DNA from: Aradus depressus
Taxonomy: Eukaryota; Arthropoda; Insecta; Hemiptera; Aradidae
NCBI GenBank assembly: GCA_963662175.1
Contig: OY759223.1
Location: 12,564,249 to 12,628,248 of the forward strand
Length of the DNA stretch: 64,000 nucleotides
Reading direction: 5' to 3'
Under the pieces are notes generated by a model. It saw only the letters and a program-made list of their open reading frames with translations. It was not told where the DNA came from and ran no database searches. Both the position numbers and the translations under genes were made by a program. Of the stretch, positions 2,740 to 44,625 are shown one piece after another. Position 1 is the stretch's first letter, and each line of letters opens with the position of its first letter.

Positions 2740-3066
2740 TTAGGTTTTATGAATCATGTCCGGGCTTTAACTACGAGGTCATATCGCCTACTACCAGAGC
2801 GCTCTTTCGTCACTCTGGTGGACATGAGCCCGACTCTACTATGCGAGGGAGTTCTAAATTTTTATTCACCTAGGGCAGGGGTCTTTAACGAGTACCTGAC
2901 ATCGTACAGGCTCGGGATCATCGCTTAACGTCCCATCCGAAGGACGGCGTGCTTAAGTTTATTTTACCTCCCAGATAAAATAAACTCATGGCCTCGGTCG
3001 GGTTTCGAAGCCACGTTCTTGAGCTCAGAAGGCAAGCACGCATACCACTGAGCTACCGGCGCCCTC
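2740..3066 (-). mobile_element. tRNA-derived SINE, full-length copy 3
   Basis: Minus-strand copy that starts at the remnant of the CCTAA tail (TTAGGTTTTATGA) and ends at the tRNA-like head (CACTGAGCTACCGGCGCCCTC). The A box is intact in complement. The tail is reduced to about one CCTAA unit. I did not find a convincing target duplication. Confidence 0.87.
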
Positions 3067-3691
3067 AATGTGTTGTTATGTAATTAGAACTTAGTTAACG
3101 CTTTACCATCAAAAATGATTGAAGCTATGATCTTGATATTTGAAATAAAGATGTCTTCAAGTGCTAACTGATTAGTTGTTGGTCAAAATTAGAGAAAAAA
3201 TGAGAACATTTTATTTATTATAATAATACGGTACATTAATAATAAATAAATTTTACAAGATCCCAGTCATACTATCTAATCAAAAAAAAAACACATAAAT
3301 GATGTGGAGAAAATAAAAATAGACATTTTAAATGAAATACGACTTCTCATTTCTCTTCCTTCTCTGGAAGGAGCCGTAGACAGGTTATGGTTTAACGGAA
3401 ATAAAAATTATTATTATTTTTACTAGGATAGAACCAAACACAGACCAAGAACACCGTAGAAGCTTCATGGCGGTCGAATTGAAACTAAAGCGAAATCCGA
3501 TTTCCGAGACCTAAATCCATGTTGATGCACACAAACACCATGAAACACAATCAGACCCACCTCCATCCATCTAAGGTACAAAATCCATTTTGAGGTCTTT
3601 CTCTTGGGCTCCCTTTATCATTTGTCTGGTTTGGAGCTCCCCCCCACACAAACATTTTATCTTGCCTCACCACAAAATGTATCATATATAT
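3067..3691. other. intergenic stretch, nothing recognised
   Basis: AT-rich DNA that ends in a CATATATAT flank, which serves as the integration site of the LTR element that follows. No coding or RNA feature was seen. Confidence 0.5.
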
Positions 3692-4713
3692 TGAAATGAT
3701 TCTTACTCTATGAATTTAATTTTATTTTTTAAATTGCCCCACGTTGGGCGCCAATGAAATGATTCTTACTCTATGAATTTAATTTTATTTTTTAAATTGC
3801 CCCACGTTGGGCGCCAATGAAACAACTTATCGTTCTTTGAATTTATTAATTTCCTACTTTAATTTATAAATCTAACAAAAAAAACAGGGGTGGCATTCTT
3901 TTCTTATTTAGAGTGTTTATGTGAAAATAAAGGAAAAATGATAACTACAATTTTAAATTATAATGCTTTATAATTTGTATATTTTAATTTCTTTTTGTAA
4001 ATGGTACAAAAAAAAAGGTTACTGGGTTAGTGAACTATTATAATTTTTTGACAATACATGAAATAAACCTCTTATGAGTTAATTTAGACAGAAAAAAAAA
4101 TGTACTCTTGGCAAATGACACCAAACTATATGGTTATAAATATGGATGACAAAAATTCTGGCAACTCACGGCATCCTATATCCTCTTTTGTATCCTTCCT
4201 TCCTGGTAACTTTCTTCTCAGTCTTTTCTTCCGTCCATATACAAAATTCAACCTTCTCGGGACTTTTCTTTATTCTTCTTCTACGACAATCCTTCATATA
4301 AATGTGCTATTTTCCATCTTCTACGCTACTTCTACACTCTTCAAAACACCCGACACCTCCTCCAAGTTCCTCCAAAAACAGACTACACCTCCTCCAAGAT
4401 GCTCCAAAACTCTACTACACCTCCTCCAAGCTGCTCTAAATCACACCACACCTCCTCCAAGCTCCTACCCAACTCTACTACCACGAGTCGGCTCCTTCTA
4501 CACTTCTCGCCATCTTTTCCCCCACCCAATGTCATCAGGTTAGCCTTTTCTTTTACAATTAATCATATTTTTTTTTCTTACTTGCTTTTAATATCTTTTG
4601 CCAAGATGTACCTACATTTTTATTTATTTGTACTTACTATTTTTTTCCTACTATTTTTATAAAGAATAACAATTTCTTTTATTCTTTGTGACCCCCCCAT
4701 TCTACACGTCACA
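3692..4713 (-). repeat. 3' LTR of the Gypsy-like element
   Basis: 1022 bp, almost identical to 7402-8423. In element orientation it begins TGTGACGTGTAG and ends ATTTCA. Its last 126 bp are two identical 63-bp units (3692-3754 and 3755-3817), each ending in a PBS-like motif. Within it, at about 4345-4480, there is a degenerate repeat of about 33 bp built on ACACCTCCTCCAAG. Apparent ORFs inside the LTR are present in both copies only because the LTR is duplicated. Confidence 0.9.
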
Positions 4714-4725
4714 TATCCCCTTCCT
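4714..4725 (-). promoter_or_regulatory. polypurine tract of the LTR element
   Basis: The minus strand reads AGGAAGGGGATA directly before the TG of the 3' LTR. This is the expected place for the plus-strand DNA primer. Confidence 0.8.
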
Positions 4726-4799
4726 ATATACAAAGAAATCTGTTATTCTTTACAGCCCTATGCATACAAATACTTTGAACCTTTTGACACATATTTTAT

Positions 4800-5100
4800 G
4801 TAAACATTTTTTTTTTTTTTTTTTTTTCATTAATACACTATTTTCTTTCTAACATTTTTAAATACTTATGCAATCAATCCTCTAACCAATATTATAATTA
4901 TAACATGTACAATTTCATAGAAACCATTTTTTTTTTTTTTTTTTTTTTTTTATAAAGGTAACTAACAAACAAATTTTTTTTTTTTTTTTTTTTTTTTTCA
5001 AAATATAAAATAATTTCAATAAATAATTTTGTTTTTTTTTTATCATAAAAAAACATTAAAATATCAAAATTTTTTTTCAGAGTGGAGAAGGCACTAAACA

Positions 5101-5151
<51 letters not shown>

Positions 5152-5330
5152 CTTTCTAACATTAACTAGCAAACAATTTTTTTTTTTTTTTTTCAAACTA
5201 TAAAATAATTTCAATAAATAATTTTTTGTTTTTTTTATCATAAAAAAACATTAAAATATCAAAAAAAATTTTTTCAGAGTGGAGAAGGCACTAAACATTT
5301 TTTTTTTTTTTTTTTTTTTTTAACAATATC
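4800..5330. repeat. homopolymer-rich internal repeat of the LTR element
   Basis: Long T runs (20-45 bases) separate two copies of a segment of about 100 bp containing TATAAAATAATTTCAATAAA and CAGAGTGGAGAAGGCACTAAAC (about 4998-5100 and 5192-5298). It lies between the 3' LTR and the gag-like frame, where pol would be expected. Run lengths in such DNA are error-prone in assemblies. Confidence 0.7.
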
Positions 5331-6104
5331 ACATATAACCATAAAATTTAAGAACATGTATAACCAAAAAAAAACAAATTCAATTTCATAAACTAAGACA
5401 GACTAAGCCGATCCACACACATATGGAGCAAGGTCTCTCATGATTTTGACATATAAGAGGTCATACTTGATCAAAAACAAAATTGCCATAGCAAAGACCG
5501 ACAAGTCACATAATGATAATTATTATGTTATTATTATTATTTTTACAACATGACACAAGACTTCAATAAATTCTCTCTACATCACAAATTCACAAAATAT
5601 CAAGAATCGAATTATATTACAATTTTTTTAGCTAGATATCGGTCATTAGGTCAGACCTACATGCATTGTTTATATGGGTCAAACTATCATAATCCTATTT
5701 GACGTGTGTACTACCTCTCTGTACCACAGGATCCCGTTAGTTGCAGTCCGTCTCTCCACCAGAATCTATCTTCCATCAACATGTTGGTTTAGTGATATCA
5801 GTTTTATAAGTGACCGTACTATCAATTCAGATTTTATTATATTTTGATTTTCATATTTCAATAGTTTCGACTTCTCAATTTAAGATTTTTTTTTTTTAAA
5901 TCCTTTTTTTTTCCAAGGTGAAAAACACACAACAAAGCTATTATTTGATACTTCGTAATAAAAACAATTTATTCATTAGCTGATTACTTTTAATTTATAA
6001 TTTAGTTTTATTTTTAATTATTATGATTTAAGAAAAATATATTTAAAAAACACAAAACCATCGCCATAAGTTCATTTAAAAGTCCAATTACGAGTTCCTT
6101 GTTA

Positions 6105-7220
6105 TCAAGAAAATATCCATCGGTTTATCTGACGGAAACTTTTTTTTTTTTTAAATTTCTTGTGATTTTTAATTTTCTTTAATTTAGTGTGATTTTTAAT
6201 TAACTTTATTAGTTCTGGGATTTTAAAGTAAGCACTTTGTTTCTGTTTATTTTCATATTTGTATAACTTTATCTTCCGATATCTAATTCTCCTCGACTTT
6301 GGCTGCAACATTACTTTAGCTTTTCTTTTATTAGTTTTCTTTAATTTTTTCTTATCACAACTTTCTTGGCAAATATGGCCCAAATTTCCTTTACAAATAT
6401 TCTTATAATTTATTTCTGTTAATTTTACTTTCAAGATAACAATATTTTTGTTTTTTATTTTATCTTTGGATATTTTTGACAATTTATAACTTTTTCTAAT
6501 AAAACCTAGCCGACATAATGTATTAAACGGAATATAATCTTTATTTATTTCTTTGTTCAATTTTATTTTTCTATTTTCCTTTCTATTTGATTTGCTTTTA
6601 CTTATTTCTAATTCATTTTTCTGAGCATTACCTATTTCATTTAATTTCTTTTTCTCATCTGTTATTAATTTATTTTCACATTTATTTTCAACTTCAATAA
6701 GATCTGTTTTTGTCTCCACTATTATTTCATTCGTGTTATTATTTTGTTGTTCCCCCCTTAGTTGCTCTATATTTTTACTTATTTGTATTTCAAAAAACTC
6801 AAACCTTTGCTCAACCGACTCGATTATTTATTTTTTATTTTTTTCATTTATTGTTTCTAACTTACAACTTAACTGTTCAAATTGATGGCCCATCTTTTCG
6901 AATGTTTTTTGCATGATACGATCCATCATTTGCTCAAATTGACTCGGATTATCGTCTTTATTTTTGTTTTCATCCTCATCCCCCGAATTCGACCTTCCTA
7001 TAAGCGGACTCGTGACTATCATAGAATTTTCTCCCGTTCCTTCTACAAATCCAGATTCCCGAACATCGCTATCTACGTTCCGGAGTCCTAATCCGCCGAG
7101 GCCACTCCCGATTCCGTCCATTCCTGCAGCTAACTCTCCCGCCTCCCCATCGTAAACAAACTCCGGACCTTGCTCTCCCGCCATGCTATGGGTCGACTCA
7201 CCTGTGTCCTCGTCCGCCAT
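6105..7220 (-). pseudogene. gag-like ORF of the LTR element, interrupted by one stop
   Basis: On the minus strand a frame opens with ATG at 7220 and runs about 130 codons to a TAA at 6828-6830. It then stays open in the same frame to the stop at 6105, giving 372 codons including both stops. The first part is acidic and glycine-rich, with a likely coiled coil near residues 95-130 (FEQMMDRIMQKTFEKMG). The second part is very lysine-rich and basic. Position after the PBS, the coiled coil and the basic tail suit a gag-like nucleic-acid-binding structural protein of a retrotransposon. No CX2CX4HX4C zinc knuckle is present; a cysteine/histidine cluster (CKGNLGHICQESC) near the middle of the second part does not fit that spacing. 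With one in-frame stop and no pol, the product is probably not made whole. Confidence 0.6.
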
Positions 7221-7328
7221 CTTGCTTCACAATGCTACTTATTCAACAAAAAAAATTACAAGATATTACAGATCAATTAGATTTCCCTTTATTCGCACAC
7301 TCTAATTGGCCACTTAGTTGGGCGCCAA

Positions 7329-7527
7329 TGAAACGATTATTGATCTAATGAATTTATTATCTGTTCAATTTTTTTAGCAAATGCCCCACGTTGGGCGCCA
7401 ATGAAATGATTCTTACTCTATGAATTTAATTTTATTTTTTAAATTGCCCCACGTTGGGCGCCAATGAAATGATTCTTACTCTATGAATTTAATTTTATTT
7501 TTTAAATTGCCCCACGTTGGGCGCCAA
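7329..7527 (-). repeat. tandem modules of LTR end plus PBS
   Basis: Three consecutive modules each start TGAAA and end in a TTGGGCGCCAA-type motif. There are two identical 63-bp units inside the LTR (7402-7464, 7465-7527) and one diverged 73-bp unit (7329-7401) inside the internal region. A further PBS-like core, GTTGGGCGCCAA, lies just beyond, at about 7317-7328. The two 63-bp units recur in the other LTR at 3692-3817. Confidence 0.85.
7383..7400 (-). promoter_or_regulatory. primer-binding site of the LTR element
   Basis: The minus strand reads TGGCGCCCAACGTGGGGC, one base after the CA that ends the 5' LTR. This is the usual position and sequence of a tRNA primer-binding site in Gypsy-type elements. 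The priming tRNA was not determined. Confidence 0.88.
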
Positions 7528-8423
7528 TGAAACAACTTATCGTTCTTTGAATTTATTAATTTCCTACTTTAATTTATAAATCTAACAAAAAAAACAGGGG
7601 TGGCATTCTTTTCTTATTTAGAGTGTTTATGTGAAAATAAAGGAAAAATGATAACTACAATTTTAAATTATAATGTTTTATAATTTGTATATTTTAATTT
7701 CTTTTTGTAAATGGTACAAAAAAAAAGGTTACTGGGTTAGTGAACTATTATAATTTTTTGACAATACATGAAATAAACCTCTTATGAGTTAATTTAGACA
7801 GAAAAAAAAATGTACTCTTGGCAAATGACACCAAACTATATGGTTATAAATATGGATGACAAAAATTCTGGCAACTCACGGCATCCTATATCCTCTTTTG
7901 TATCCTTCCTTCCTGGTAACTTTCTTCTCAGTCTTTTCTTCCGTCCATATACAAAATTCAACCTTCTCGGGACTTTTCTTTATTCTTCTTCTACGACAAT
8001 CCTTCATATAAATGTGCTATTTTCCATCTTCTACGCTACTTCTACACTCTTCAAAACACCCGACACCTCCTCCAAGTTCCTCCAAAAACAGACTACACCT
8101 CCTCCAAGATGCTCCAAAACTCTACTACACCTCCTCCAAGCTGCTCTAAATCACACCACACCTCCTCCAAGCTCCTACCCAACTCTACTACCACGAGTCG
8201 GCTCCTTCTACACTTCTCGCCATCTTTTCCCCCACCCAATGTCATCAGGTTAGCCTTTTCTTTTACAATTAATCATATTTTTTTTTCTTACTTGCTTTTA
8301 ATATCTTTTGCCAAGATGTACCTACATTTTTATTTATTTGTACTTACTATTTTTTTCCTACTATTTTTATAAAGAATAACAATTTCTTTTATTCTTTGTG
8401 ACCCCCCCATTCTACACGTCACA
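7402..8423 (-). repeat. 5' LTR of the Gypsy-like element
   Basis: Partner of 3692-4713 with the same length and TG...CA ends. As the upstream LTR on the minus strand it should carry the promoter, but I could not place a TATA box or start site with confidence. Two 63-bp units with PBS-like ends (7402-7464, 7465-7527) close the LTR next to the true PBS. Confidence 0.9.
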
Positions 8424-8879
8424 ATATATATTTTTTTTGTAGTCATAAAATCAGATCACATATCGTTGTGGCACTAGCCTTTTCGATCTTCTTTCATGGA
8501 CCTATCCTTTATAACGCAGAAAACATCTTGGACAGACAATATGGCTTCCATCTTTGCAAATTCTACTCCCGTAGTCCATAATAATAATAATAATAGTTAT
8601 TATTCCAGGGCTTTAACTACAATAATATTATATAATAGTAATAATTGTTAATGTTTAAGGGGCTCACCCCTATACAATGGAGTCAATGACCATTACATTT
8701 ACAATATTAACGTAATAATGACACTTATAAAAGAATACACATATAAAACAAGATTGATATATATTAAGGAACCTTTAACAAACTAAATAAATAACATAAA
8801 TAAATAAATAAAAAATATATAAATAAAATAAGTAATTACAAATTAATAATAATAATGTAACAAAGACAGTAAATATGGA
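8424..8879. other. AT-rich DNA with an ATA microsatellite
   Basis: Short ATA/TAA runs lie near 8578-8650 and 8780-8865. No gene, RNA or element border was recognised. Confidence 0.5.
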
Positions 8880-13109: not shown

Positions 13110-13330
13110 TAGATTTAATATTTGTTAAAACTGATAGAGAACGACCGGATTATCTGAATCCTACACAAAAATCAAAATAAAAATGTTTTTCAAAAAATTC
13201 ACGCTATTTAACGGTTTATAGGCTTAATAATTGTTAAAACTGATACGACAGAATCGAATATATCCGAAAAGTCCCATCCGACGGACGACGTGCTCAAGGC
13301 TATTTTCAACCTAAGTGAAATTTCACCTAA
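13110..13330 (+). repeat. 440-bp satellite, partial unit left of the palindrome
   Basis: It follows Helitron A directly and breaks off at TTTCACCTAA, where the palindrome is inserted; the unit continues at 25777. See 25777-27355 for the repeat. Confidence 0.85.
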
Positions 13331-13449
13331 GTAGAAGGGAAATGGGGACTCTGGCGCAGTTGCCCCACATGACCTTTGACCCCACGGGGTCACGTGACCC
13401 ATCACTCCCCACCACCACCCCCCCCCCCCCTCCACGCTCCGAATCACCC

Positions 13450-13830
13450 ACCATCGTACATCCCCAGCTCAATAAGTTTCCACTCTCCCTCTAAACCTCA
13501 ATAAGTTTACACTCTCCCTCTAAACCTCAATAAGTTTACACTCTCCCTCTAAAACTCAATAAGTTTCCACTCTCCCTCCTAACCTTAATAAGTTTCCACT
13601 CTCCCTCTAAACCCCAATAAGTTTCCACTCTCCCTCTAAACCTCAATAAGTTTCCGCTGCCCCTCTTAACCTCAATAAGCCCCCCCCCCCCCCCCCATTT
13701 TTTCATCTCAATTTTTGTCCTTTGAATCACTACCAATCTACTTCCCCATCTAAATAAGTTTCCACTCTTCCTCTAAACCTCTATAAGTTTCCGCTCTCCC
13801 TCTAAACCCTGCTTTACATTTTTATCTCAC
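13450..13830 (+). repeat. 29-bp minisatellite, left palindrome arm
   Basis: About ten units of AAGTTTCCACTCTCCCTCTA with AACCTCAAT, broken by a poly-C run at 13680-13696. The mirror copy is at about 25280-25660 on the other arm. A second poly-C run lies at about 13418-13430. Confidence 0.8.
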
Positions 13831-14034
13831 CCCTCGCCTGTGCCCCTATATTTTTTTTAATTAGCCCACTAGTAACAATTTTTATATTTTTAAAGACTGA
13901 TTTCGTGACCTTGAACAGGCACTTTCGTGATCTAACATGTCGAACCCTGCATTCGTGTAGCCTACCATATCATGTCCTAGCATGATCATCATCATCATTG
14001 TATTCAGTATTATTTTAAACTGAAGTATAATGAT

Positions 14035-14410
14035 GGAATAATCGCCTACCTACAATTCTGAGCATGCCGTCCTTCGGTGCCTTGAAAAGTATTGCATTTA
14101 AAAATATAACTCAAAGCTCGTCATATTGAGTATGTTGTCCGATTGGAGTAATATGATGGAAAAATCGCCTACCTACACTTTTGAGCATGCCGTCCTTCGG
14201 TGCCTTGAAAAGTATTGCATTTAAAAATATAATTCAAAGCTCGTCATATTGAGTATGTTGTCCGATTGGAGTAATATGATGGAAAAATCGCCTACCTACA
14301 CTTTTGAGCATGCCGTCCTTCGGTGCCTTGAAAAGTATTGCATTTAAAAATATAATTCAAAGCTCGTCATATTCAGTATTATTTTAAACTGGAGTAATAT
14401 GATGGAAAAA
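14035..14410 (+). repeat. 123-bp tandem repeat, left palindrome arm
   Basis: Three units with TCGCCTACCTACA landmarks at 14042, 14165 and 14288, each holding GAGCATGCCGTCCTTCGG, a motif also present in the SINE body. The mirror copy lies at about 24700-25080. Confidence 0.85.
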
Positions 14411-14639
14411 AAAAAAAAGCATTTATCTTCAATTCCGAGCACGCTGTCCTTTGGTGTTATTTGTGAATTATTGTTTTTTTTTTTATTTCAACAATCATTT
14501 ATTAGTAATTTTGCGTTTTCTCCAATCTGAAGACATCCTAGACCTTGAAATGGTTTTTGCATGCATTATACATGTTCAAACATGTCGAGACCTGTTGTTC
14601 ATACTTCACCAATTTTTATTTCATGATTTAATCTTACAT

Positions 14640-17130
14640 CCCCACGTCAATTAACACATCCAATGTGCTTCCCCATCTCAATACCCCCGCTCTCCCTCCG
14701 ATTCACTACTCTCTATCTTCAGTATAGCGGCGTAGCCAATCCATCTCAATTTTCTCACTTATACTTCCCCACCTAATTCTCCCTTTAAACCTTTTACTCA
14801 GACACACATCCAAGCAATTTTCTTTAGATTTCATCATAGTCCACTACTCTTAGCACCATCATGCTTCGCCCCTGTTCAACACCTACAACCTCTCTAGATC
14901 GTCTGACATTTTCATCATAACCCGGTCAACCCATACATAAACCTACATTCTACGTCCATTAGCCTTTCCCTCTGAGTCAGTCAAACTTACCCACCTCAAA
15001 TCATCTTCAATGCACATACCCACATCAATTATTCTAAAACATAATCTTTAATTATAATAGTTCTACTTCCTGAGACCTATTAGACTTCTTCCAACCGGCA
15101 GAGACTTTGCAACCCACACCTAATCCTCAGGTCTTTCTCCTAATTTTTATGACTCACTTCTACTTCCCCACATCAATCGTCTAATTGTTTTTTCTCAACT
15201 TGTTCTTACCAATTTTCTGTTCTCTACTTCTAAAACCTTTTACTCATACATACACGCGGAGTAATCTTTAGATCTAGATGTACCTTTCCATGGATACATT
15301 CTTAGGCTAACATGCAGTATATTCAACTTACGTTATGTTACATACTACTTCTCATCTCCAGCACTTAACTTACTTAGCACCTCTACTGTATTCCAATCCT
15401 CGTTTAAAGCGGTCAAAACAATTTCTTTTTCCTTCCACCAACCGTCCTCTACTGTAATTGCTCTCCTAACCTTCTTAAACCCCCGCACAATTCTGACAAC
15501 GACCAATCCATCCCAATATTCTGCTCTCCACTTCTACTTCCCCAACATCATATCAAGTTAGAACCCTACAAGTGTAGACTACTGCCCCGTCAACATTTCT
15601 TTCTCATTCAAACCACTTCTATCCCACCTCTCACTCAGACATACCTGCACACTTGCATCACATGCAGAAAATCAAATTTAAATGCTTCTCCCTACCTAAA
15701 CCGCCAGGTCAACACCCCCACAGTTCTCGTCGATATTTAGATTCGCATTTCCAATATTACTTTACCATCACTATTTTTACGACTAATAACCTACAATCTA
15801 GCAGGAACTTAAATTATCCCCCTGCACAACACTACTCCGGATATATTCAGAACCCACTCCCACACATCTGAGCACCAATAGAACTCTAACCTAGGACCCC
15901 TGCTGTGTAGGCTCACTCACATTGGTACCTGTCAACCCATCTTTATAACTTCAAAAGCCGGGGGTAATTTCATATTCAAGTATTTTTCCTAAGATTTCAT
16001 ACTGATGAAGGCTCTAGACCCCTTCATCACCAACGAGATCAGTTAAAGAACTATTTTATAACACAGCCCCAACGTACATATAAGGTGTGTCCAATACAAT
16101 AGGAACTCTTCTTATATAGCTATCCTAAGAAGAAGTCATTGAAAACTTTACCCACTGAGCCGGATAATTATTTATAGTAGAGATACTAATATTTTTTGAA
16201 TGGGTAGGCGGCCTTGTGTAACATTTCATTATCAGAGATTAGCTGTGATGTACTTTTCTACAAATCAGAGACTATGCAGAGACAATAGAATCCTTCCGAG
16301 AGATCCAATATATCGTCACGACACAACACTTCACAAAAATACGGAATTGTTCACCTATCCCTATAAACATCACTCAACTGCAACTTCCCCAAATCTAAAA
16401 AACTTAGAAGTCGCTCGGACACATTTTAAAAACCCCACCACTCTTATATATACTTCCTCAGCTAAATTCTTTCCCTGGTTCCCCTCTATAGTATATCTTA
16501 AACTCTAAAGTAACCCCAACCCGAACACCATTCCTATCAATCTAAACTTTTATTTCTCAGTCATGCACCATAGATAGGGTTTTCTATAGGTGCTATCACC
16601 AATCTCCTACATGCATATATATATAATATATTTTCTATAGTTCCCCCGACATTTTTCTACAACTAACACTCAACCGTTCCTCAATTAATATTATAACGCA
16701 GCCCTCACACCCATACTCCATTGTATTTATTTTTCAAGTCCCAAGCTCTTCGTCTAATATACATCACAGTTCCCACCGGTATTTGAGAACCCATATAGTA
16801 TTATTGTTCCATCCTCACCCACATCTCATGGACCCCACAATTCACCCCTCCTTCCCCGCATATATGGTATTGAGAGCCAAAACACTTACGATGACCCAAT
16901 ACAACAGTTATTTTACCGATTCATCTTCATAGCCACAAAACCCGGGATTATTTAATATTTTAGTATATTTCTTTTTTCATTATTTTTCACAGGTTTTTTT
17001 TTTCCCCACATACAACGCCTACTCCACTCAACTGTGTTTTCTTAAAGTCCTATACATATCTTACATCCTTTCATATATTTATTTTTTATTTAGTCATATT
17101 ATTTTATATTTTATGCGATTAATATTTATT
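14640..17130. other. non-coding part of the left palindrome arm
   Basis: Poor in G on the plus strand, with many scattered CTTCCCCA and CACATCAAT motifs. No long frame was found; ORFs of 72 and 102 codons occur identically in the mirror arm but resemble no known family. The mirror is about 21980-24470. Confidence 0.5.
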
Positions 17131-17403
17131 TACATTTTCGAAAATTTACGTAAATTATGAAAATTTTGCAGCATATTCAGGAACATTTTTTGTGATGAAT
17201 GTGACTGCATAATAACTATCGTGATTATAAGAAAAATTGGTGAGTACAAGCTGGTCAGTATTAAGAAATAAAAATCGTATATAGGTTCCATATCATAGGC
17301 AGTTGTTGGGGCTAGGTGTATTGCTGGAAACCCATTAATGATCGGCTCTTCTCGGCTCGTCTCGGATTTTATCGGCTCCTTTCGTTGCATGTAGGATGAA
17401 AAA

Positions 17404-17599
17404 AACTATAAATACGTTCTGTTTGGTCAGTAGTTATCTGTTTTCATTGTGAACGTGTTAACAACTTTGAGATAAATACAATCTGATCATTCACTGTTTA
17501 TTGAACCGAAGTTGTCAACCCTGTTACAATAAATACGGTCTGTTTGGTGATTATTAGGCAGACTTCATTGATCTAGTAATCCACAGCAGGTTAGATACC
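17404..17599 (+). promoter_or_regulatory. putative promoter of the HTH gene, left arm
   Basis: Upstream of the ATG at 17600 a motif ATAAATAC is repeated three times (17408, 17472, 17529). Each copy is followed by a TCTG-containing stretch, GTTCTGTTTGG or GGTCTGTTTGG in two of them. The first lies in a TATA-box-like CTATAAATAC and has a TCAGT initiator-like sequence about 20 bases on. The same region is mirrored before the right-arm gene (about 21513-21708). The promoter role is inferred. Confidence 0.4.
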
Positions 17600-18129
17600 A
17601 TGGGGGTCAAACGAAACGCTCTCACTATAGAAAATAAAATAAAAATAATTAAACTTTTTGATGAAGGAGAAAAGGTTGGAGAAATATCGAAACATTTCAA
17701 GATTCTCAATCCACGATTTCTTCAATTTTAAAGAGGCGAGCAACCATTTTTCAATTGGATACATGTGGTAAAAGACATATTAAACGAATTAGAACTAATG
17801 GTGGAACACACTCCCAGAATACACCCCCACTTGCCTTCAACGGAGAGAATTACACACAACAACACACAGACTCTTCAGAGGACGATGTGGGTGAACACTC
17901 CAGTTCATCACAACAGCAAACGGTCTCTTCACAGCATGATTCGGGTGAAGACGGAAGTGAACGAATTCATTCAACAGAACACCAAAGAGTAGTATATGGT
18001 GATAAAAAACCAACAAAAAAGTTCAACCTTCCTAAACCCGTAAAAGGCTTAATACCTCTGTCTAAGGAAAATATGACGTTTTTACGTTTGGTCGGGTATA
18101 AAGTTCTGTCATCAACGTATAGATGTTAG
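17600..18129 (+). pseudogene. psq-type HTH protein, left arm copy, frameshifted
   Basis: The same gene as 20982-21512 on the mirror arm, but with one C missing in GATTC(C)TCAATCC near 17704. This shifts the frame inside the helix-turn-helix. Downstream, the original frame is open again from 17755 to 18129. The start ATG at 17600 and the upstream region are unchanged, so this copy broke after the arms were formed or escaped their homogenisation. A sequencing error in the assembly is another explanation. Confidence 0.65.
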
Positions 18130-18443
18130 ATTTGGATAGTTCAAAGAGGGGTTCGGGTATCATTTTCATTACCGAAGCCATCGGGGGTATAGATGGAATA
18201 AGAAAATCTGTTCGACATGAAAACACTCACACTTTGCCATCATATAGGTTTATCTATTTAAAAGGTAGATTTTTTCAAGGAGAATGGGACAACGACAGTT
18301 GCAACATTCTAAAAGCGGGTTTTGTTCAATTCCAGTGCTTCCTGGGTAATAACTCGGACTATATTTTGAAGGATATATCAATAATGGGCATTAACTTTAT
18401 TGGGAATAGGTACACAGCATATCACAAACGAAAAGATTATTAA
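18123..18443 (+). CDS. hypothetical 106-residue protein, left arm
   Basis: The ATG overlaps the stop of the preceding frame (AGATGTTAG), in a different frame. The sequence is identical to the mirror copy at 20668-20988. It has glycine and aromatic residues (FIYLKGRFFQGEWDND, FQCFLGNNSDYILKDISIMG) and no signal peptide or membrane segment. I do not recognise the family. It may be a second exon or frameshifted end of the HTH gene, or a separate small protein. Kept intact in both arms, it may be under selection or just young. Confidence 0.4.
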   Translation: MLDLDSSKRGSGIIFITEAIGGIDGIRKSVRHENTHTLPSYRFIYLKGRFFQGEWDNDSCNILKAGFVQFQCFLGNNSDYILKDISIMGINFIGNRYTAYHKRKDY

Positions 18444-18898
18444 AAAGAATCAAATCGAATGCTGTGAGGTTGAAGGCTTGGAGAGGCTATAAACGCACGC
18501 AGGTCGTATGAGTGAAGGTTTGGAGAGGATATAGATGCCCGCAGACCAGTGTGATCACCAGCAGTTCTAAATGTTGAAAACATTGATTTTAGGAAAAGTA
18601 GGAGAGTACAATCGTGTTAATATGCCTGTATTTTTGATTTGCAGGAAAGGGCCTTGCCCCTTTTTATTCATGCTTTGTATCCAAAAGTATATATATTTCA
18701 GTTTTCATTTGACTATATGCTTATATCATCTCTTTGTGAGAGCGGTTCTAAATCTGCTGGGTAAGTTTCGTTCTTGATCAGTGTATACATGTACCCCCAA
18801 AATCCTGTTTCTTTGAACCAAATTCAACTCAGTCAAATCGATTCAAATCCCTATATTATACTGCAATATTCTCGCTCAAACATCACTACACTCTCCTT

Positions 18899-20212
18899 CT
18901 AGTTATAACGATATCGTTATAAATATAGCGATATCACAGTAGTTATAACGATATCACTGTAGTTATAACGATATCGCTATATTTATAACGATATTACTGT
19001 AGTTATAACGATATCGCTATATTTATAACGATATTACTGTAGTTATAACGATATCGCTATATTTATAACGATATCACAGGAGTTATAAAGATATCGCTAT
19101 ATTTATAACGATATTACTGTAGTTATAACGATATCGCTATATTTATAACGATATTACTGTATTTATAACGATATCGCTATATTTATAACGATATCACAGG
19201 AGTTATAACGATATCGCTATATTTATAACGATATCACAGGAATTATAACGATATCGCTATATTTATAACTATAGCGATATCGTTATAACTACAGTAATAT
19301 CGTTATAAATATAGCGATATCGTTATAACTACAGTAATATCGTTATAAATATAGCGATATCGTTATAACTACTGTGATATCGTTATAAATATAGCGATAT
19401 CGTTATAACTCTTGTGATATCGTTATAAATATAGCGATATCGTTATAACTACTGTGATATCGTTATAAATATAGCGATATCGTTATAACTACAGTAATAT
19501 CGTTATAAATATAGCGATATCGTTATAACTACAGTAATATCGTTATAAATATAGCGATATCGTTATAACTACAGTAATATCGTTATAAATATAGCGATAT
19601 CGTTATAACTACAGTAATATCGTTATAAATATAGCGATATCGTTATAACTACAGTAATATCGTTATAAATATAGCGATATCGTTATAAATATAGCGATAT
19701 CGTTATAACTACAGTAATATCGTTATAAATATAGCGATATCGTTATAACTACTGTGATATCGTTATAAATATAGCGATATCGTTATAACTACAGTAATAT
19801 CGTTATAAATATAGCGATATCGTTATAACTCTTGTGATATCGTTATAAATATAGCGATATCGTTATAACTACTGTGATATCGTTATAAATATAGCGATAT
19901 CGTTATAACTCCTGTGATATCGTTATAAATATAGCGATATCGTTATAAATACAGTAATATCGTTATAAATATAGCGATATCGTTATAACTACAGTAATAT
20001 CGTTATAAATATAGCGATATCTTTATAACTCCTGTGATATCGTTATAAATATAGCGATATCGTTATAACTACAGTAATATCGTTATAAATATAGCGATAT
20101 CGTTATAACTACAGTAATATCGTTATAAATATAGCGATATCGTTATAACTACAGTGATATCGTTATAACTACTGTGATATCGCTATATTTATAACGATAT
20201 CGTTATAACTAG
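18899..20212. repeat. 40-bp tandem array at the centre of the palindrome
   Basis: About 33 units of 40 bp. Each has two related 20-bp halves, GTTATAACTACAGTAATATC and GTTATAAATATAGCGATATC, themselves near-palindromic with GATATC ends. Orientation flips near 19262-19270: before it the units read in one direction (about 0.37 kb), after it in the complement (about 0.9 kb). The array joins the two arms and makes the loop of the predicted hairpin. Confidence 0.92.
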
Positions 20213-20667
20213 AAGGAGAGTGTAGTGATGTTTGAGCGAGAATATTGCAGTATAATATAGGGATTTGAATCGATTTGACTGAGTTGAATTTGGTTCAAAG
20301 AAACAGGATTTTGGGGGTACATGTATACACTGATCAAGAACGAAACTTACCCAGCAGATTTAGAACCGCTCTCACAAAGAGATGATATAAGCATATAGTC
20401 AAATGAAAACTGAAATATATATACTTTTGGATACAAAGCATGAATAAAAAGGGGCAAGGCCCTTTCCTGCAAATCAAAAATACAGGCATATTAACACGAT
20501 TGTACTCTCCTACTTTTCCTAAAATCAATGTTTTCAACATTTAGAACTGCTGGTGATCACACTGGTCTGCGGGCATCTATATCCTCTCCAAACCTTCACT
20601 CATACGACCTGCGTGCGTTTATAGCCTCTCCAAGCCTTCAACCTCACAGCATTCGATTTGATTCTTT

Positions 20668-20988
20668 TTAATAATCTTTTCGTTTGTGATATGCTGTGTA
20701 CCTATTCCCAATAAAGTTAATGCCCATTATTGATATATCCTTCAAAATATAGTCCGAGTTATTACCCAGGAAGCACTGGAATTGAACAAAACCCGCTTTT
20801 AGAATGTTGCAACTGTCGTTGTCCCATTCTCCTTGAAAAAATCTACCTTTTAAATAGATAAACCTATATGATGGCAAAGTGTGAGTGTTTTCATGTCGAA
20901 CAGATTTTCTTATTCCATCTATACCCCCGATGGCTTCGGTAATGAAAATGATACCCGAACCCCTCTTTGAACTATCCAAATCTAACAT
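20668..20988 (-). CDS. hypothetical 106-residue protein, right arm
   Basis: Mirror copy of 18123-18443 with identical translation. The start overlaps the last bases of the upstream HTH ORF in another frame, which suggests translational coupling, a spliced or frameshifted continuation, or chance. No family recognised. Confidence 0.4.
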   Translation of the reverse strand: MLDLDSSKRGSGIIFITEAIGGIDGIRKSVRHENTHTLPSYRFIYLKGRFFQGEWDNDSCNILKAGFVQFQCFLGNNSDYILKDISIMGINFIGNRYTAYHKRKDY

Positions 20989-21512
20989 CTATACGTTGAT
21001 GACAGAACTTTATACCCGACCAAACGTAAAAACGTCATATTTTCCTTAGACAGAGGTATTAAGCCTTTTACGGGTTTAGGAAGGTTGAACTTTTTTGTTG
21101 GTTTTTTATCACCATATACTACTCTTTGGTGTTCTGTTGAATGAATTCGTTCACTTCCGTCTTCACCCGAATCATGCTGTGAAGAGACCGTTTGCTGTTG
21201 TGATGAACTGGAGTGTTCACCCACATCGTCCTCTGAAGAGTCTGTGTGTTGTTGTGTGTAATTCTCTCCGTTGAAGGCAAGTGGGGGTGTATTCTGGGAG
21301 TGTGTTCCACCATTAGTTCTAATTCGTTTAATATGTCTTTTACCACATGTATCCAATTGAAAAATGGTTGCTCGCCTCTTTAAAATTGAAGAAATCGTGG
21401 ATTGAGGAATCTTGAAATGTTTCGATATTTCTCCAACCTTTTCTCCTTCATCAAAAAGTTTAATTATTTTTATTTTATTTTCTATAGTGAGAGCGTTTCG
21501 TTTGACCCCCAT
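20982..21512 (-). CDS. psq/CENP-B-type helix-turn-helix protein, right arm, intact
   Basis: 176 residues. Residues 1-50 (MGVKRNALTIENKIKIIKLF, then DEGEKVGEISKHFKIPQSTI and SSILKRR) match the helix-turn-helix psq/CENP-B N-terminal fold, which in pogo/Tigger transposases and their domesticated relatives binds DNA at element ends. Residues 60-135 are polar and rich in S, H, Q, T and E, probably disordered. Residues 137-176 are basic to hydrophobic with KKPTKKFNLPKPVKG. No DDE catalytic domain follows, so it could bind DNA but not cut it. The start at 21512 follows a repeated TATA-like region. It could regulate or mark the palindrome, or be a fragment of an inserted Tigger-like element; the first is inference. 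Confidence 0.65.
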   Translation of the reverse strand: MGVKRNALTIENKIKIIKLFDEGEKVGEISKHFKIPQSTISSILKRRATIFQLDTCGKRHIKRIRTNGGTHSQNTPPLAFNGENYTQQHTDSSEDDVGEHSSSSQQQTVSSQHDSGEDGSERIHSTEHQRVVYGDKKPTKKFNLPKPVKGLIPLSKENMTFLRLVGYKVLSSTYRC

Positions 21513-24500
21513 GGTATCTAACCTGCTGTGGATTACTAGATCAATGAAGTCTGCCTAATAATCACCAAACAGACCGTATTTATTGTAACAGGGTTGACAA
21601 CTTCGGTTCAATAAACAGTGAATGATCAGATTGTATTTATCTCAAAGTTGTTAACACGTTCACAATGAAAACAGATAACTACTGACCAAACAGAACGTAT
21701 TTATAGTTTTTTTCATCCTACATGCAACGAAAGGAGCCGATAAAATCCGAGACGAGCCGAGAAGAGCCGATCATTAATGGGTTTCCAGCAATACACCTAG
21801 CCCCAACAACTGCCTATGATATGGAACCTATATACGATTTTTATTTCTTAATACTGACCAGCTTGTACTCACCAATTTTTCTTATAATCACGATAGTTAT
21901 TATGCAGTCACATTCATCACAAAAAATGTTCCTGAATATGCTGCAAAATTTTCATAATTTACGTAAATTTTCGAAAATGTAAATAAATATTAATCGCATA
22001 AAATATAAAATAATATGACTAAATAAAAAATAAATATATGAAAGGATGTAAGATATGTATAGGACTTTAAGAAAACACAGTTGAGTGGAGTAGGCGTTGT
22101 ATGTGGGGAAAAAAAAAACCTGTGAAAAATAATGAAAAAAGAAATATACTAAAATATTAAATAATCCCGGGTTTTGTGGCTATGAAGATGAATCGGTAAA
22201 ATAACTGTTGTATTGGGTCATCGTAAGTGTTTTGGCTCTCAATACCATATATGCGGGGAAGGAGGGGTGAATTGTGGGGTCCATGAGATGTGGGTGAGGA
22301 TGGAACAATAATACTATATGGGTTCTCAAATACCGGTGGGAACTGTGATGTATATTAGACGAAGAGCTTGGGACTTGAAAAATAAATACAATGGAGTATG
22401 GGTGTGAGGGCTGCGTTATAATATTAATTGAGGAACGGTTGAGTGTTAGTTGTAGAAAAATGTCGGGGGAACTATAGAAAATATATTATATATATATGCA
22501 TGTAGGAGATTGGTGATAGCACCTATAGAAAACCCTATCTATGGTGCATGACTGAGAAATAAAAGTTTAGATTGATAGGAATGGTGTTCGGGTTGGGGTT
22601 ACTTTAGAGTTTAAGATATACTATAGAGGGGAACCAGGGAAAGAATTTAGCTGAGGAAGTATATATAAGAGTGGTGGGGTTTTTAAAATGTGTCCGAGCG
22701 ACTTCTAAGTTTTTTAGATTTGGGGAAGTTGCAGTTGAGTGATGTTTATAGGGATAGGTGAACAATTCCGTATTTTTGTGAAGTGTTGTGTCGTGACGAT
22801 ATATTGGATCTCTCGGAAGGATTCTATTGTCTCTGCATAGTCTCTGATTTGTAGAAAAGTACATCACAGCTAATCTCTGATAATGAAATGTTACACAAGG
22901 CCGCCTACCCATTCAAAAAATATTAGTATCTCTACTATAAATAATTATCCGGCTCAGTGGGTAAAGTTTTCAATGACTTCTTCTTAGGATAGCTATATAA
23001 GAAGAGTTCCTATTGTATTGGACACACCTTATATGTACGTTGGGGCTGTGTTATAAAATAGTTCTTTAACTGATCTCGTTGGTGATGAAGGGGTCTAGAG
23101 CCTTCATCAGTATGAAATCTTAGGAAAAATACTTGAATATGAAATTACCCCCGGCTTTTGAAGTTATAAAGATGGGTTGACAGGTACCAATGTGAGTGAG
23201 CCTACACAGCAGGGGTCCTAGGTTAGAGTTCTATTGGTGCTCAGATGTGTGGGAGTGGGTTCTGAATATATCCGGAGTAGTGTTGTGCAGGGGGATAATT
23301 TAAGTTCCTGCTAGATTGTAGGTTATTAGTCGTAAAAATAGTGATGGTAAAGTAATATTGGAAATGCGAATCTAAATATCGACGAGAACTGTGGGGGTGT
23401 TGACCTGGCGGTTTAGGTAGGGAGAAGCATTTAAATTTGATTTTCTGCATGTGATGCAAGTGTGCAGGTATGTCTGAGTGAGAGGTGGGATAGAAGTGGT
23501 TTGAATGAGAAAGAAATGTTGACGGGGCAGTAGTCTACACTTGTAGGGTTCTAACTTGATATGATGTTGGGGAAGTAGAAGTGGAGAGCAGAATATTGGG
23601 ATGGATTGGTCGTTGTCAGAATTGTGCGGGGGTTTAAGAAGGTTAGGAGAGCAATTACAGTAGAGGACGGTTGGTGGAAGGAAAAAGAAATTGTTTTGAC
23701 CGCTTTAAACGAGGATTGGAATACAGTAGAGGTGCTAAGTAAGTTAAGTGCTGGAGATGAGAAGTAGTATGTAACATAACGTAAGTTGAATATACTGCAT
23801 GTTAGCCTAAGAATGTATCCATGGAAAGGTACATCTAGATCTAAAGATTACTCCGCGTGTATGTATGAGTAAAAGGTTTTAGAAGTAGAGAACAGAAAAT
23901 TGGTAAGAACAAGTTGAGAAAAAACAATTAGACGATTGATGTGGGGAAGTAGAAGTGAGTCATAAAAATTAGGAGAAAGACCTGAGGATTAGGTGTGGGT
24001 TGCAAAGTCTCTGCCGGTTGGAAGAAGTCTAATAGGTCTCAGGAAGTAGAACTATTATAATTAAAGATTATGTTTTAGAATAATTGATGTGGGTATGTGC
24101 ATTGAAGATGATTTGAGGTGGGTAAGTTTGACTGACTCAGAGGGAAAGGCTAATGGACGTAGAATGTAGGTTTATGTATGGGTTGACCGGGTTATGATGA
24201 AAATGTCAGACGATCTAGAGAGGTTGTAGGTGTTGAACAGGGGCGAAGCATGATGGTGCTAAGAGTAGTGGACTATGATGAAATCTAAAGAAAATTGCTT
24301 GGATGTGTGTCTGAGTAAAAGGTTTAAAGGGAGAATTAGGTGGGGAAGTATAAGTGAGAAAATTGAGATGGATTGGCTACGCCGCTATACTGAAGATAGA
24401 GAGTAGTGAATCGGAGGGAGAGCGGGGGTATTGAGATGGGGAAGCACATTGGATGTGTTAATTGACGTGGGGATGTAAGATTAAATCATGAAATAAAAAT

Positions 24501-24699
24501 TGGTGAAGTATGAACAACAGGTCTCGACATGTTTGAACATGTATAATGCATGCAAAAACCATTTCAAGGTCTAGGATGTCTTCAGATTGGAGAAAACGCA
24601 AAATTACTAATAAATGATTGTTGAAATAAAAAAAAAAACAATAATTCACAAATAACACCAAAGGACAGCGTGCTCGGAATTGAAGATAAATGCTTTTTT

Positions 24700-25080
24700 T
24701 TTTTTTCCATCATATTACTCCAGTTTAAAATAATACTGAATATGACGAGCTTTGAATTATATTTTTAAATGCAATACTTTTCAAGGCACCGAAGGACGGC
24801 ATGCTCAAAAGTGTAGGTAGGCGATTTTTCCATCATATTACTCCAATCGGACAACATACTCAATATGACGAGCTTTGAATTATATTTTTAAATGCAATAC
24901 TTTTCAAGGCACCGAAGGACGGCATGCTCAAAAGTGTAGGTAGGCGATTTTTCCATCATATTACTCCAATCGGACAACATACTCAATATGACGAGCTTTG
25001 AGTTATATTTTTAAATGCAATACTTTTCAAGGCACCGAAGGACGGCATGCTCAAAATTGTAGGTAGGCGATTATTCCATC
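24700..25080 (-). repeat. 123-bp tandem repeat, right palindrome arm
   Basis: Mirror of 14035-14410 with three units on the complementary strand. Confidence 0.85.
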
Positions 25081-25279
25081 ATTATACTTCAGTTTAAAAT
25101 AATACTGAATACAATGATGATGATGATCATGCTAGGACATGATATGGTAGGCTACACGAATGCAGGGTTCGACATGTTAGATCACGAAAGTGCCTGTTCA
25201 AGGTCACGAAATCAGTCTTTAAAAATATAAAAATTGTTACTAGTGGGCTAATTAAAAAAAATATAGGGGCACAGGCGAG

Positions 25280-25660
25280 GGGTGAGATAAAAATGTAAAG
25301 CAGGGTTTAGAGGGAGAGCGGAAACTTATAGAGGTTTAGAGGAAGAGTGGAAACTTATTTAGATGGGGAAGTAGATTGGTAGTGATTCAAAGGACAAAAA
25401 TTGAGATGAAAAAATGGGGGGGGGGGGGGCTTATTGAGGTTAAGAGGGAGAGCGGAAACTTATTGAGGTTTAGAGGGAGAGTGGAAACTTATTGGGGTTT
25501 AGAGGGAGAGTGGAAACTTATTAAGGTTAGGAGGGAGAGTGGAAACTTATTGAGTTTTAGAGGGAGAGTGTAAACTTATTGAGGTTTAGAGGGAGAGTGT
25601 AAACTTATTGAGGTTTAGAGGGAGAGTGGAAACTTATTGAGCTGGGGATGTACGATGGTG
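25280..25660 (-). repeat. 29-bp minisatellite, right palindrome arm
   Basis: Mirror of 13450-13830. The poly-G run is 14 against 17 in the other arm, and one unit differs by substitutions (GAGAGCGG against the complement of CCGCTGCCCC). Confidence 0.8.
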
Positions 25661-25776
25661 GGTGATTCGGAGCGTGGAGGGGGGGGGGGTGGTGGTGGGG
25701 AGTGATGGGTCACGTGACCCCGTGGGGTCAAAGGTCATGTGGGGCAACTGCGCCAGAGTCCCCATTTCCCTTCTAC

Positions 25777-27355
25777 TCACCTAACCAGGTTTATTTACAT
25801 AACATACGTCTCATTATCGAGTACCTCACATTCGAAAAAGCCCTGGATCCTTGCTTAATGTCCCATCCGAAGGACGACGTGCTCAAAGTGTTTTTTAACT
25901 TCCCGATTGAAACATCTGACCTAAGTGCCTCAGCTAAATTTCTAAGTGGCGATCCTGAGCTCGGTAGACTCCATTCTTCAAATTTCTCGCTTTTTAACGG
26001 TTTATAGATTTAATATTTGTTAAAACTGATAGAGAACGACCGGATTATCTGAATCCTACACAAAAATCAAAATAAAAATGTTTTTCAAAAAATTCACGCT
26101 ATTTAACGGTTTATAGGCTTAATAATTGTTAAAACTGATACGACAGAATCAGATATATCCGAAAAGTCCCATCCGACGGACGACGTGCTCAAGGCTATTT
26201 CCAACCTAAGTGAAATTGCACCTAACCAGGTTTATTTACATAACATACGTCTCATTATCGAGTACCTCACATTCGAAAAAGCCCTGGATCATCGCTTAAA
26301 GTCCCATCCGAAGGACGACGTGCTCAAAGTGTTTTTTAACTTCCCGATTGAAACATCTGACCTAAGTGCCTCAGCTAAATTTCTAAGTGGCGATCCTGAG
26401 CTCGGTAGACTCCATTCTTCAAATTTCTCGCTTTTTAACGGTTTATAGATTTAATATTTGTTAAAACTGATAGAGAACGACCGGATTATCTGAATCCTAC
26501 ACAAAAATCAAAATAAAAATGTTTTCAAAAATTTGCGCTATTTAACGGTTTATAGGCTTAATAATTGTTAAAACTGATACGAGAGATTCAGATTTATCCG
26601 GAAAGTCCCATCCGAAGGACGACGTGCTCAAGGCTATTTTCAACCTAAGTGATATTTCACCTACCCAGGTTTATTTACATAACATACGTCTCATTATCGA
26701 GTACCTCACATTCGAAAAAGCCCTGGATCATCGCTTAAAGTCCCATCCGAAGGACGACGTGCTCAAAGTGTTTTTTAACTTCCTGATTGAAACATCTGAC
26801 CTAAGTGCCTCAGCTAGATTTGTAAGTGGCGATCCTGAGCTCGGTAGACTCCATTCTTCAAATTTCTCGCTTTTTAACGGTTTATAGATTAAATATTTGT
26901 TAAAACTGATAGAGAACGACCGGATTATCTGAACCCCACACAAAAATAAAAATGAAAACGTTTTTCAAAAAATTCGCGCTATTTAACGGTTTATAGGCTT
27001 AATAATTGTTAAAACTGATACTACAGATTCAGATATATCCGGAAAGTCCCATCCGAAGGACGACGTGCTCAAGGCTTTCAACCTAAGTGGAAATTGACCT
27101 ACCCAGGTTTATTTACATAACATACGTCTCATTATCGAGTACCTCACATTCGAAAAAGCCCTGGATCATCGCTTAATGTCCCATCCGAAGGACGAAGTGC
27201 TCAAAGTTATTTTTATCTTCCCGATTAAAACATCTGACCAAAGTGCCTCAGCTAGATTTCTAAGTGGCGATCCTGAGCTCGGTAGACTCCATTCTTCAAA
27301 TTTCTTGCTTTTTAACGGTTTATAGATTTAATATTTGTTAACTGACAGAGCCATA
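25777..27355 (+). repeat. 440-bp dimeric satellite, block right of the palindrome
   Basis: About 3.5 units with AAAGTCCC landmarks at 26163, 26602 and 27043 (439-441 bp). Each unit consists of two diverged halves that both start AACGGTTTATAG and hold GTCCCATCCGAAGGACGACG. The stretch CGAGTACCT-ACAT...CATCGCTTAA-GTCCCATCCGAAGGACG-CGTGCT matches the SINE body almost throughout. Short frames of 87 codons recur in each unit only because the unit is repeated. Confidence 0.88.
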
Positions 27356-28857: not shown

Positions 28858-29806
28858 TAGTATACATAGTAGTAACTATGTATTCGCTGTGGGGTTCACT
28901 GTTGCAAGACATTTACTAGCTGTGATGTCCAGCGTTCCTAATATCGTACTAGCTGTGGGGTCCGCTGTTGCAAGGTACTTACTAGCTGTAGTGCTCAGCC
29001 CCAGCGTTCCTAACTATGTACTGGCTGTGGGGTTCGCTGTTGCAAGGCACCTATAAGACATTTACTAGCTGTAATGCCCAGCGTTTCTAATTACGTACTA
29101 GCTGTGGGGTCTGCTGTTGCAAGGCTCTAGCAGTGTGGCCCAGCGTATTTCACTCGTAGGTACTAGCTGTGGGATCCGCCGTTGCAAAACTCATACTAGC
29201 TGTGATGCCCTGTGGTTCTAACTACATACTATCTGTGGGGTTTGCAGTTGCAAGGCACCTACTACCTATAGGGCCCAGCGTTCCTAAAAACGTACTAGCT
29301 GTGGGGTCCGTCGTTGCAAAAGCATACTAGCTGTGATGCCCAGGGTTGCTAATATCGTACTAGCTGTGGGGTCCGTTGTTGCAAGGCATTTACTAGCTGT
29401 AGTGCCCAGCGTTCCTAACTATGTACTAGCTGTGAAGTTCGCTGTTGCAAAGCACTTACTAACTGTAATGCCCAGCGTATTTAACTACATACTAGCTGTT
29501 GGGTCCGCCGTCGCAAGGCACATACTAGCTATGATGCCCAGCATTCCCAACTACGTACTAGCTGTGGAGCTCAGCGTTGCAAGCCACATACTAGCTGTGG
29601 TCACAAACGTTCTTAAGTACGCACTGATTAGGACGTCCAGCGATGCTAAGTATTCACTAGGTGTGGCTTCCGCCGTTGAAAGGCGCATACTAGCTGTGGT
29701 GCCCAGGGGTCCTAAAAACTTACTAGCGTTACAACAGCTGAAGGACTATAAGCCTTATTCCGTATGAATAATTGAAAATTATAACATCATGAATGTACTG
29801 TCGAGG
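28858..29806 (+). repeat. 66-bp tandem repeat array 1 (Helitron B) with partial 3' tail
   Basis: About 14 units of the 66-bp repeat, then a tail ending TACTGTCGAGG at about 29806. That tail belongs just before the Helitron 3' hairpin, but here it runs into the 440-bp satellite. Confidence 0.88.
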
Positions 29807-31521
29807 TTTATAGATTTAATATTTGTTAAAACTGATAGAGAACGACCGGATTATCTGAATCCTACACAAAAATCAAAATAAAAATGTTTTTCAAAACATT
29901 TGCGCTATTTAACGGTTTATAGGCTTAATAATTGTTAAAACTGATACGAGAGATTCAGATTTATCCGGAAAGTCCCATCCGAAGGACGACGTGCTCAAGG
30001 CTATTTTCAACCTAAGTGATATTTCACCTACCCAGGTTTATTTACATAACATACGTCTCATTATCGAGTACCTCACATTCAAAAAAGCCCTGGATCATCG
30101 CTTAAAGTCCCATCCGAAGGACGACGTGCTCAAAGTGTTTTTTAACTTCCCGATTGAAACATCTGACCTAGGTGCCTCAACTAGATTTCTAAGTGGCGAT
30201 CCTGAGCTCGGTAGACTCCATTCATGAAATTTCTCGCTTTTTAACGGTTTATAGATTTAATATTTGTTAAAACTGATAGAGAACGACCGGATTATCTTAA
30301 CCCCACACAAAAATCAAAATGAAAATGTTTTTCAAAAAATTTGCGCTATTTAACGGTTTATAGGCTTAATAATTGTTAAAACTGATACGAGAGATTCAGA
30401 TTTATCCGGAAAGTCCCATCCGAAGGACGACGTGCTCAAGGCTATTTTCAACCTAAGTGAAATTTCACCTACCCAGGTTTATTTACATAACATACGTCTC
30501 ATTATCGAGTACCTCACATTCGAAAAAGTCCTGGAACATCGCTTAAAGTCCCATCCGAAGGACGACGTGCTCATAGTTATTTTTCACTTCCCGATTAAAA
30601 CATCTGACCTAAGTGCCTCAGCTAGATTTCTAAGTGGCGATCCTGCGCTCGGTAGACTCCATTCTTCAAATTTCTCGCTTTTTAACGGTTTATAGATTAA
30701 ATATTTGTTAAAACTGATAGAGAACGACCGGATTATCTGAATCCTACACAAAAATCAAAATAAAAATGTTTTTCAAAAAATTCACGCTATTTAACGGTTT
30801 ATAGGCTTAATAATTGTTAAAACTGATACGACAGAATCAGATATATCCGAAAAGTCCCATCCGAAGGACGACGTGCTCAAGGCTTTCAACCTAAGTAGAA
30901 ATTGACCTACCCAGGTTTATTTACATAAAATACGTCTCATTATCGAGTACCTCACATTCGAAAAAGCCCTGGATCCTTGCTTAATGTCCCATCCGAAGGA
31001 CGACGTGCTCAAAGTTATTTTTAGCTTCCCGATTAAAACATCTGACCTAAGGGCCTCAACTAGATTTCTAAGTGGCGATCCTGAGCTCGGTAGACTCCAT
31101 TCTTGAAATTTCTCGCTTTTTAACGGTTTATAGATTTAATATTTGTTAAAACTGATAGAGAACGACCGGATTATCTGAATCCTACCCAAAAATCAGAATA
31201 AAAATGTTTTTCAAAAAATTTGCGCTATTTAACGGTTTATAGGCTTAATAATTGTTAAAACTGATACGAGAGATTCAGATTTATCCGGAAAGTCCCATCC
31301 GAAGGACGACGTGCTCAAGGCTTTCAACCTAAGTGGAAATTGACCTACCCAGGTTTATTTACATAACATACGTCTCATTATCGAGTACCTCAAATTCGAA
31401 AAAGCCCTGGATCATCGCTTAATGTCCCATCCGAAGGACGAAGTGCTCAAAGTTATTTTTAACTTCCCGATTAAAACATCTGACCAAAGTGCCTCAGCTA
31501 GATTTCTAGGTGGCGATCCTG
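29807..31521 (+). repeat. 440-bp dimeric satellite, block inside Helitron B
   Basis: About four units in the same orientation as 25777-27355. It enters at TTTATAGATTTAATATTTG and leaves in mid-unit at GGTGGCGATCCTG, where it joins the 66-bp array at CACTTACTAACTG. Confidence 0.88.
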
Positions 31522-44410: not shown

Positions 44411-44625
44411 AAAAAATATTATGTGCTTTGAGATGAAGGATTTAGAAGGAGAGCGGAAACTTACTTTTGAGCGCTAAAAAGATTGCACACTCATTATCTT
44501 AACGGGAAGCCATTATTTATGGTTGCCTATTATCGTATCTGGTTGTAGCAGACATTACTGTATTAATGTTTTTCAGAAAATATGAGGGATCGGTACCACT
44601 TGGTCCACCTATATTTTACATTCCA

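Follow-up and report, generated by a model that had tools for sequence, protein, structure and literature searches.

A 12.4-kb palindromic element with foldback structure inserted in a 440-bp satellite

Galileo copy 112 of Drosophila willistoni is 9021 bp long and consists of two TIRs of 4246 and 4680 bp, and in the accessible part of the report it is described as having tandem repeats and no transposase (PMC4168063). Vertebrate Mavericks, as far as the available text of their description goes, present 6-bp duplications, (AGT)2//(ACT)2 or (AG)3 ends, and TIRs of 46-1447 bp (PMC8097293). For AAV, the available text describes snap-back genomes of both the symmetric and the asymmetric kind (PMC8235507).

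The locus described here lies in a window of 64 kb (the whole stretch of Aradus depressus DNA that was analysed, 64,000 nucleotides). The initial annotation had described it as a 12.4-kb near-perfect palindrome with two inverted arms of 5.57 kb, and this description was confirmed. The whole element, which has no strand of its own, spans positions 13330-25777 (12448 bp, AGTAG...CTACT) if its target duplication is read as 6 bp, and positions 13331-25776 (GTAG...CTAC) if it is read as 8 bp. On the basis of the repeat search and the arm alignment, the left arm was placed at 13330-18903 (+ strand) and the inverted right arm at 20209-25777 (- strand). In the repeat search, the arms gave inverted matches of 4023 nt (100% complementary) and 1849 nt (94%). 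The alignment of 13331-18903 (5573 bp) with the reverse complement of 20209-25776 (5568 bp) showed 10 differing columns, which correspond to three substitutions, one 1-base indel, five columns due to length differences in two C-runs, and one edge column. Furthermore, 11930/12419 30-mers inside the element have their own reverse complement within it, against 538/51523 in the rest of the 64-kb window; three Markov-2 controls gave a count of 0 each.

The ends of the element and the target duplication are both perfect, as had been claimed, and can be read in two ways. The duplication is either 6 bp, CACCTA (13324-13329 on the left and 25778-25783 on the right, both + strand), with AGTAG...CTACT as ends, or 8 bp, TCACCTAA (13323-13330 and 25777-25784), with GTAG...CTAC as ends; the single copy of the element is compatible with both. 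In either reading, the first 30 and the last 30 bases of the element are complementary at 30/30 positions.

The empty site expected in other units of the 440-bp satellite was also found. We joined the two flanks with one CACCTA (260 + 300 bp) and compared the obtained sequence to the satellite units: it matched seven other units across the junction, with 92.9-98.7% identity and no gap at the junction. The hexamer at the junction is CACCTA in 4/7 units and GACCTA in 3/7, and the exact 8-mer TCACCTAA occurs in 0/7, a comparison that cannot choose between 6 and 8 bp because the original site is identical in both readings. The host satellite continues in direct orientation on both sides of the element. 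As the joined flanks align to seven satellite units without a junction gap, the insertion of the element into the satellite is well supported. The duplication proves only the insertion of something bearing these two ends, and this may have become a palindrome later; the initial reading as one transposed unit is thus partly supported.

The foldback structural class is characterised by long and internally repetitive inverted arms, a small or absent middle, a target-site duplication, and an empty site, and all these features are present here. The long inverted arms and the exactly complementary ends thus support the foldback structure of the element. Assigned from its structure only, it looks like a very large new foldback element of 12.4 kb, and we are highly confident that it is a foldback insertion, whatever its origin.

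Other repeated sequences are present in the window. An element of ~350 bp occurs in several copies and in both orientations (265-640, 1151-1520, 2739-3079, 44100-44480, and 63123-63470); it has a tRNA-like start (GGTAGCTCAGT), ARAGORN found no tRNA, and we presume that it is probably a SINE. The SINE-like sequence near 44.2 kb has 35 bp at 91% in common with the 440-bp satellite. At 3692-8427, two direct repeats of 1026 bp (99.8% identity) surround ~2.7 kb containing minus-strand ORFs, with 63-bp tandem units near the repeats; we interpret it as a probable LTR element of young age, with no recognisable domain. Finally, a 76-bp satellite forms a 17-kb array at 45593-62625 (about 224 copies, 97% matches).

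Each arm presents, from the outside in, a GC-rich end, 29-bp repeats, 123-bp repeats, a C-rich stretch, a CENP-B-type gene, and a 106-aa ORF. The GC-rich end contains a GGGTCAAAGGTCA-like motif and a TCACGTGA motif, which we take to be DR1 and E-box, respectively; the 12-mer and the 8-mer of these terminal motifs are confined, within the 64-kb window, to the two ends of the element. The 29-bp subterminal tandem repeats are at 13468-13679 (+) and 25430-25641 (-), with 7.3 copies on each side. Single sequences similar to this unit are found outside the element at 44437-44472 and 45008-45031 (23 matching positions over 24-27 bp); since such copies lie outside, the 29-bp unit may be host-derived. 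The 123-bp tandem repeats, at 14030-14410 (+, 3.1 copies) and 24702-25111 (-, 3.3 copies), hold a 25-bp motif that the host 440-bp satellite also has. The motif CCGAAGGACG..TGCTCA has 16 matches in the host satellite (window positions 25777-27341 and 29805-31521) and three per arm in the 123-bp repeats. The C-rich, G-poor stretch covers ~2.5 kb at 14580-17080 (+), mirrored at about 22030-24530, and C exceeds G in 9/10 of its 250-bp windows. It is non-repetitive and gene-poor, its longest ATG ORFs being of 69 and 102 aa; the 102-aa ORF (16200-16508) had no match at its Pfam cut-off.

The gene of the inner arm is intact on the right, where an ORF of 176 aa (20982-21512, - strand) encodes a CENP-B N-terminal DNA-binding domain (Pfam E 6.5e-12; E 1.3e-5 against human CENP-B, 1bw6). 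In the arm alignment, its left copy (17600-18129, +) carries a one-base frameshift. The end of this HTH gene is overlapped by the 106-aa ORF, present at 18123-18443 (+) in the left arm and as an identical copy at 20668-20988 (-) in the right one; its single-sequence fold has a pLDDT of 32.8. For the 176-aa ORF, the protein database yielded 47 candidate relatives, and for the 106-aa ORF three, with 0 at E 0.01 or better in both cases. Pattern matches in IMG/VR (21 and 7, respectively) were not confirmed, and the NCBIfam matches were to HTH families only, all of them weak and under the curated cut-offs. After the CENP-B HTH there is no DDE match, and at the element there is no TA duplication, i.e., the Tigger/pogo features that were looked for. 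We also considered a TATA/initiator promoter upstream of the HTH gene, and discarded it since the distance from TATAAATA to TCAGT is too small. The 64-kb window contains 0 human-type CENP-B boxes (0.07 expected), and thus there is no sign of this box in the host satellite. As a candidate for binding the inner array, we propose the CENP-B-like protein that each arm encodes.

This array, announced in the initial annotation as 1.3 kb of 40-bp units between the arms, was found at 18904-20208 and consists of palindromic sites in two opposite orientations with a 40-bp period (no single strand can be given). It contains 65 sites centred on ATAT, mostly 20 bp apart, with GATAT-box spacings of 20, 26 or 40 bp. 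The dyad symmetry of the sites is on average 13.1 of 20, against 6.0 in shuffles, and two of them are perfect 20-bp palindromes. The array turns strand at 19246-19285, where a 16-bp stem encloses an 8-nt loop; the centre of the turn, 19265.5, is off the midpoint of the arms (about 19556), and the turn itself belongs to neither strand. When each side is followed from its outer edge towards the centre, the initial 16 half-units have the same order in the left and right array, including the variants G, H, and I, each present once per side. Beyond these, the left array has two more half-units and then the turn, and the right array has 30 more. In other words, the left array matches the right one over the outermost 366 bp of the latter, with 364/366 bp in agreement in the outer-edge register (95% in the next-best register). 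This layout fits a strand that folded back inside the array. The left array also contains a unit, J, missing from the right one, and two changes in 366 bp have a probability of 0.017 at the rate of the arms. These two observations hint at changes of the array that are later than the palindrome itself; the turn may have shifted, and its one-sided position may reflect array turnover and not the original junction.

We searched the six frames of the right arm for genes of mobility. No transposase, integrase, polymerase, capsid, ATPase, or protease was found, and Pfam at E 0.5 returned HTH families only. More specifically, the MULE transposase, the P/THAP transposase of the Galileo/P superfamily, and the Polinton core genes (pPolB, integrase, ATPase, protease, and capsid) were sought in these frames and not found; within this scope, the earlier statement that no FB/MULE or Galileo/P transposase and no Polinton gene set was seen holds, and for this reason the element was not assigned to Polinton, MULE, or P. 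In IMG/VR, no sequence was identical to the short DNA patterns taken from the end, the array, or the 29-bp unit; a pattern from the end was likewise absent from prokaryote-only genome contigs, and Rfam gave 0 matches at gathering score. Among the titles and abstract openings listed, mainly from outside subscription journals, there was no report of a palindromic or snap-back Polinton.

As to the origin of the element, we tentatively favour, with a confidence that stays below even, a non-autonomous foldback DNA transposon in which both arms represent one parental end and whose insertion took place in trans, perhaps through an integrase of Polinton type. The parent would have been longer, and both arms would have been copied from a single one of its ends. 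During the replication of this parent, the polymerase would have reached the palindromic array, where the new strand would have folded back or switched strand; the folded strand would then have copied the arm back to the end, generating a snap-back molecule with the same parental end on both sides. A recombinase supplied in trans could have joined this molecule into the satellite with a 6-bp stagger. In favour of a snap-back are the near-identical arms, the target duplication, the empty site, the off-centre turn in a palindromic array, and the 16-bp stem at the turn. The AGT...ACT ends and the 6 bp would point to an integrase of Polinton/Maverick type and to protein-primed replication, a mode that is well suited to snap-back products, and the AGTAGA end, which exists in the 6-bp reading only, matches (AGT)2 at 5/6 positions. 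Against this route stand the duplication, which can be read as 6 or 8 bp, the six frames of the right arm, in which no Polinton gene was found, the possible later change of the array, the negative searches for relatives (of the two ORFs in the protein database and IMG/VR, and of the three short DNA patterns), and the 5.57-kb arms, which far exceed the 46-1447 bp of vertebrate Maverick TIRs; a snap-back product, however, would not retain the parental TIR length. A snap-back origin with Polinton-type machinery is possible, if somewhat doubtful, and the ends of the element give a hint of a virus-like origin. The more specific proposal of a germline-fixed, defective-genome-like snap-back of a Polinton/Maverick-type virus-transposon, folded in a protein-binding palindrome array and inserted by a helper integrase, appears rather unlikely.

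The main rival to the snap-back reading is an ordinary cut-and-paste foldback element, MULE/FB-like or of another 8-bp superfamily, with GTAG...CTAC ends, TIRs lengthened stepwise, and arms homogenised by conversion. The 8-bp duplication is as perfect as the 6-bp one, and the accessible parts of the literature offer a close precedent in form, Galileo copy 112 (PMC4168063), as well as 8-10-bp duplications and repeat-filled TIRs in Tetris and Tm1 (PMC4079207, PMC3169594). Yet a complete gene in the inner arms at ~99.9% needs a recent large inverted copy or efficient conversion, and the six frames of the right arm contain no transposase domain. Moreover, no P, hAT, or Merlin consensus is known to fit these ends. 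We consider such an element a possible explanation, to be held with reservation.

The palindrome could also have formed in place, if an ordinary element was inserted and the sequence of one of its halves was subsequently replaced by that of the other, in inverted orientation, through gap repair after cutting, conversion, or break-induced copying ending in the array. The target duplication and the empty site fit this history equally, the copied tract stops within the repeat array, and aborted or template-switched gap repair has been invoked for defective P-type copies, in the accessible part of PMC4168063. Nevertheless, short complementary ends would have been required on both sides of the parent beforehand, and no positive evidence sets this route apart from the snap-back one; we regard it as improbable. 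Assemblies often go wrong at long palindromes and at low-complexity arrays, and an artefact could be an adapter-missed fold-back read or a longer element collapsed with the loss of its core at the array. An artefact is highly improbable overall, although the array may have been collapsed. Real substitutions separate the arms, and the two flanks are directly oriented portions of a single satellite unit and carry a target duplication. The fold-back read was rejected because it would mirror the host flanks too, and these are not mirrored.

If the element is a plain foldback, it ranks with the larger palindromic elements of the compared literature, and it indicates that a gene can be doubled within the arms. 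If it is a true snap-back Polinton, a replication intermediate of a virus-like transposon would be recorded in a chromosome; this would be direct sequence evidence for snap-back replication in the Polinton/Maverick group and would suggest that defective genomes are made there as in AAV. In both readings, double-stranded RNA could arise from this 5.5-kb hairpin in satellite DNA if it is transcribed.

The comparison with known systems, limited to the accessible parts of the sources, gives likenesses to several of them. Like Galileo copy 112, a foldback of the P superfamily, the element is nearly all inverted arm, with tandem repeats, a target duplication, and no transposase; unlike it, Galileo copy 112 has unequal arms of 4.2-4.7 kb and 7-8-bp duplications, and the available text does not mention for it a gene with a CENP-B-type domain such as that in the arms of this element (PMC4168063). 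The foldback shape, the repetitive arms, and the existence of non-autonomous copies are shared with the Mutator/Foldback element Tm1 and with the foldback Tetris, which have 8-10-bp duplications, apparently shorter arms, and different repeat units (PMC3169594, PMC4079207), of 14 bp in Tm1 (PMC3169594) and about 220 bp in Tetris (PMC4079207). With Polinton/Maverick, the element may share the 6-bp duplication and the AGT...ACT ends, and its 12.4 kb are just below the 12.7-24.6 kb of intact vertebrate copies (PMC8097293, PMC6431247); it differs in its arms, far above the 46-1447 bp of vertebrate TIRs, and in the core genes, not found in the six frames of the right arm. Finally, the resemblance to the snap-back genomes of AAV is one of form only, AAV being a small ssDNA virus and the element an integrated dsDNA: in both, the structure is self-complementary, would be built from one end, and is either symmetric or provided with a one-sided loop (PMC8235507).
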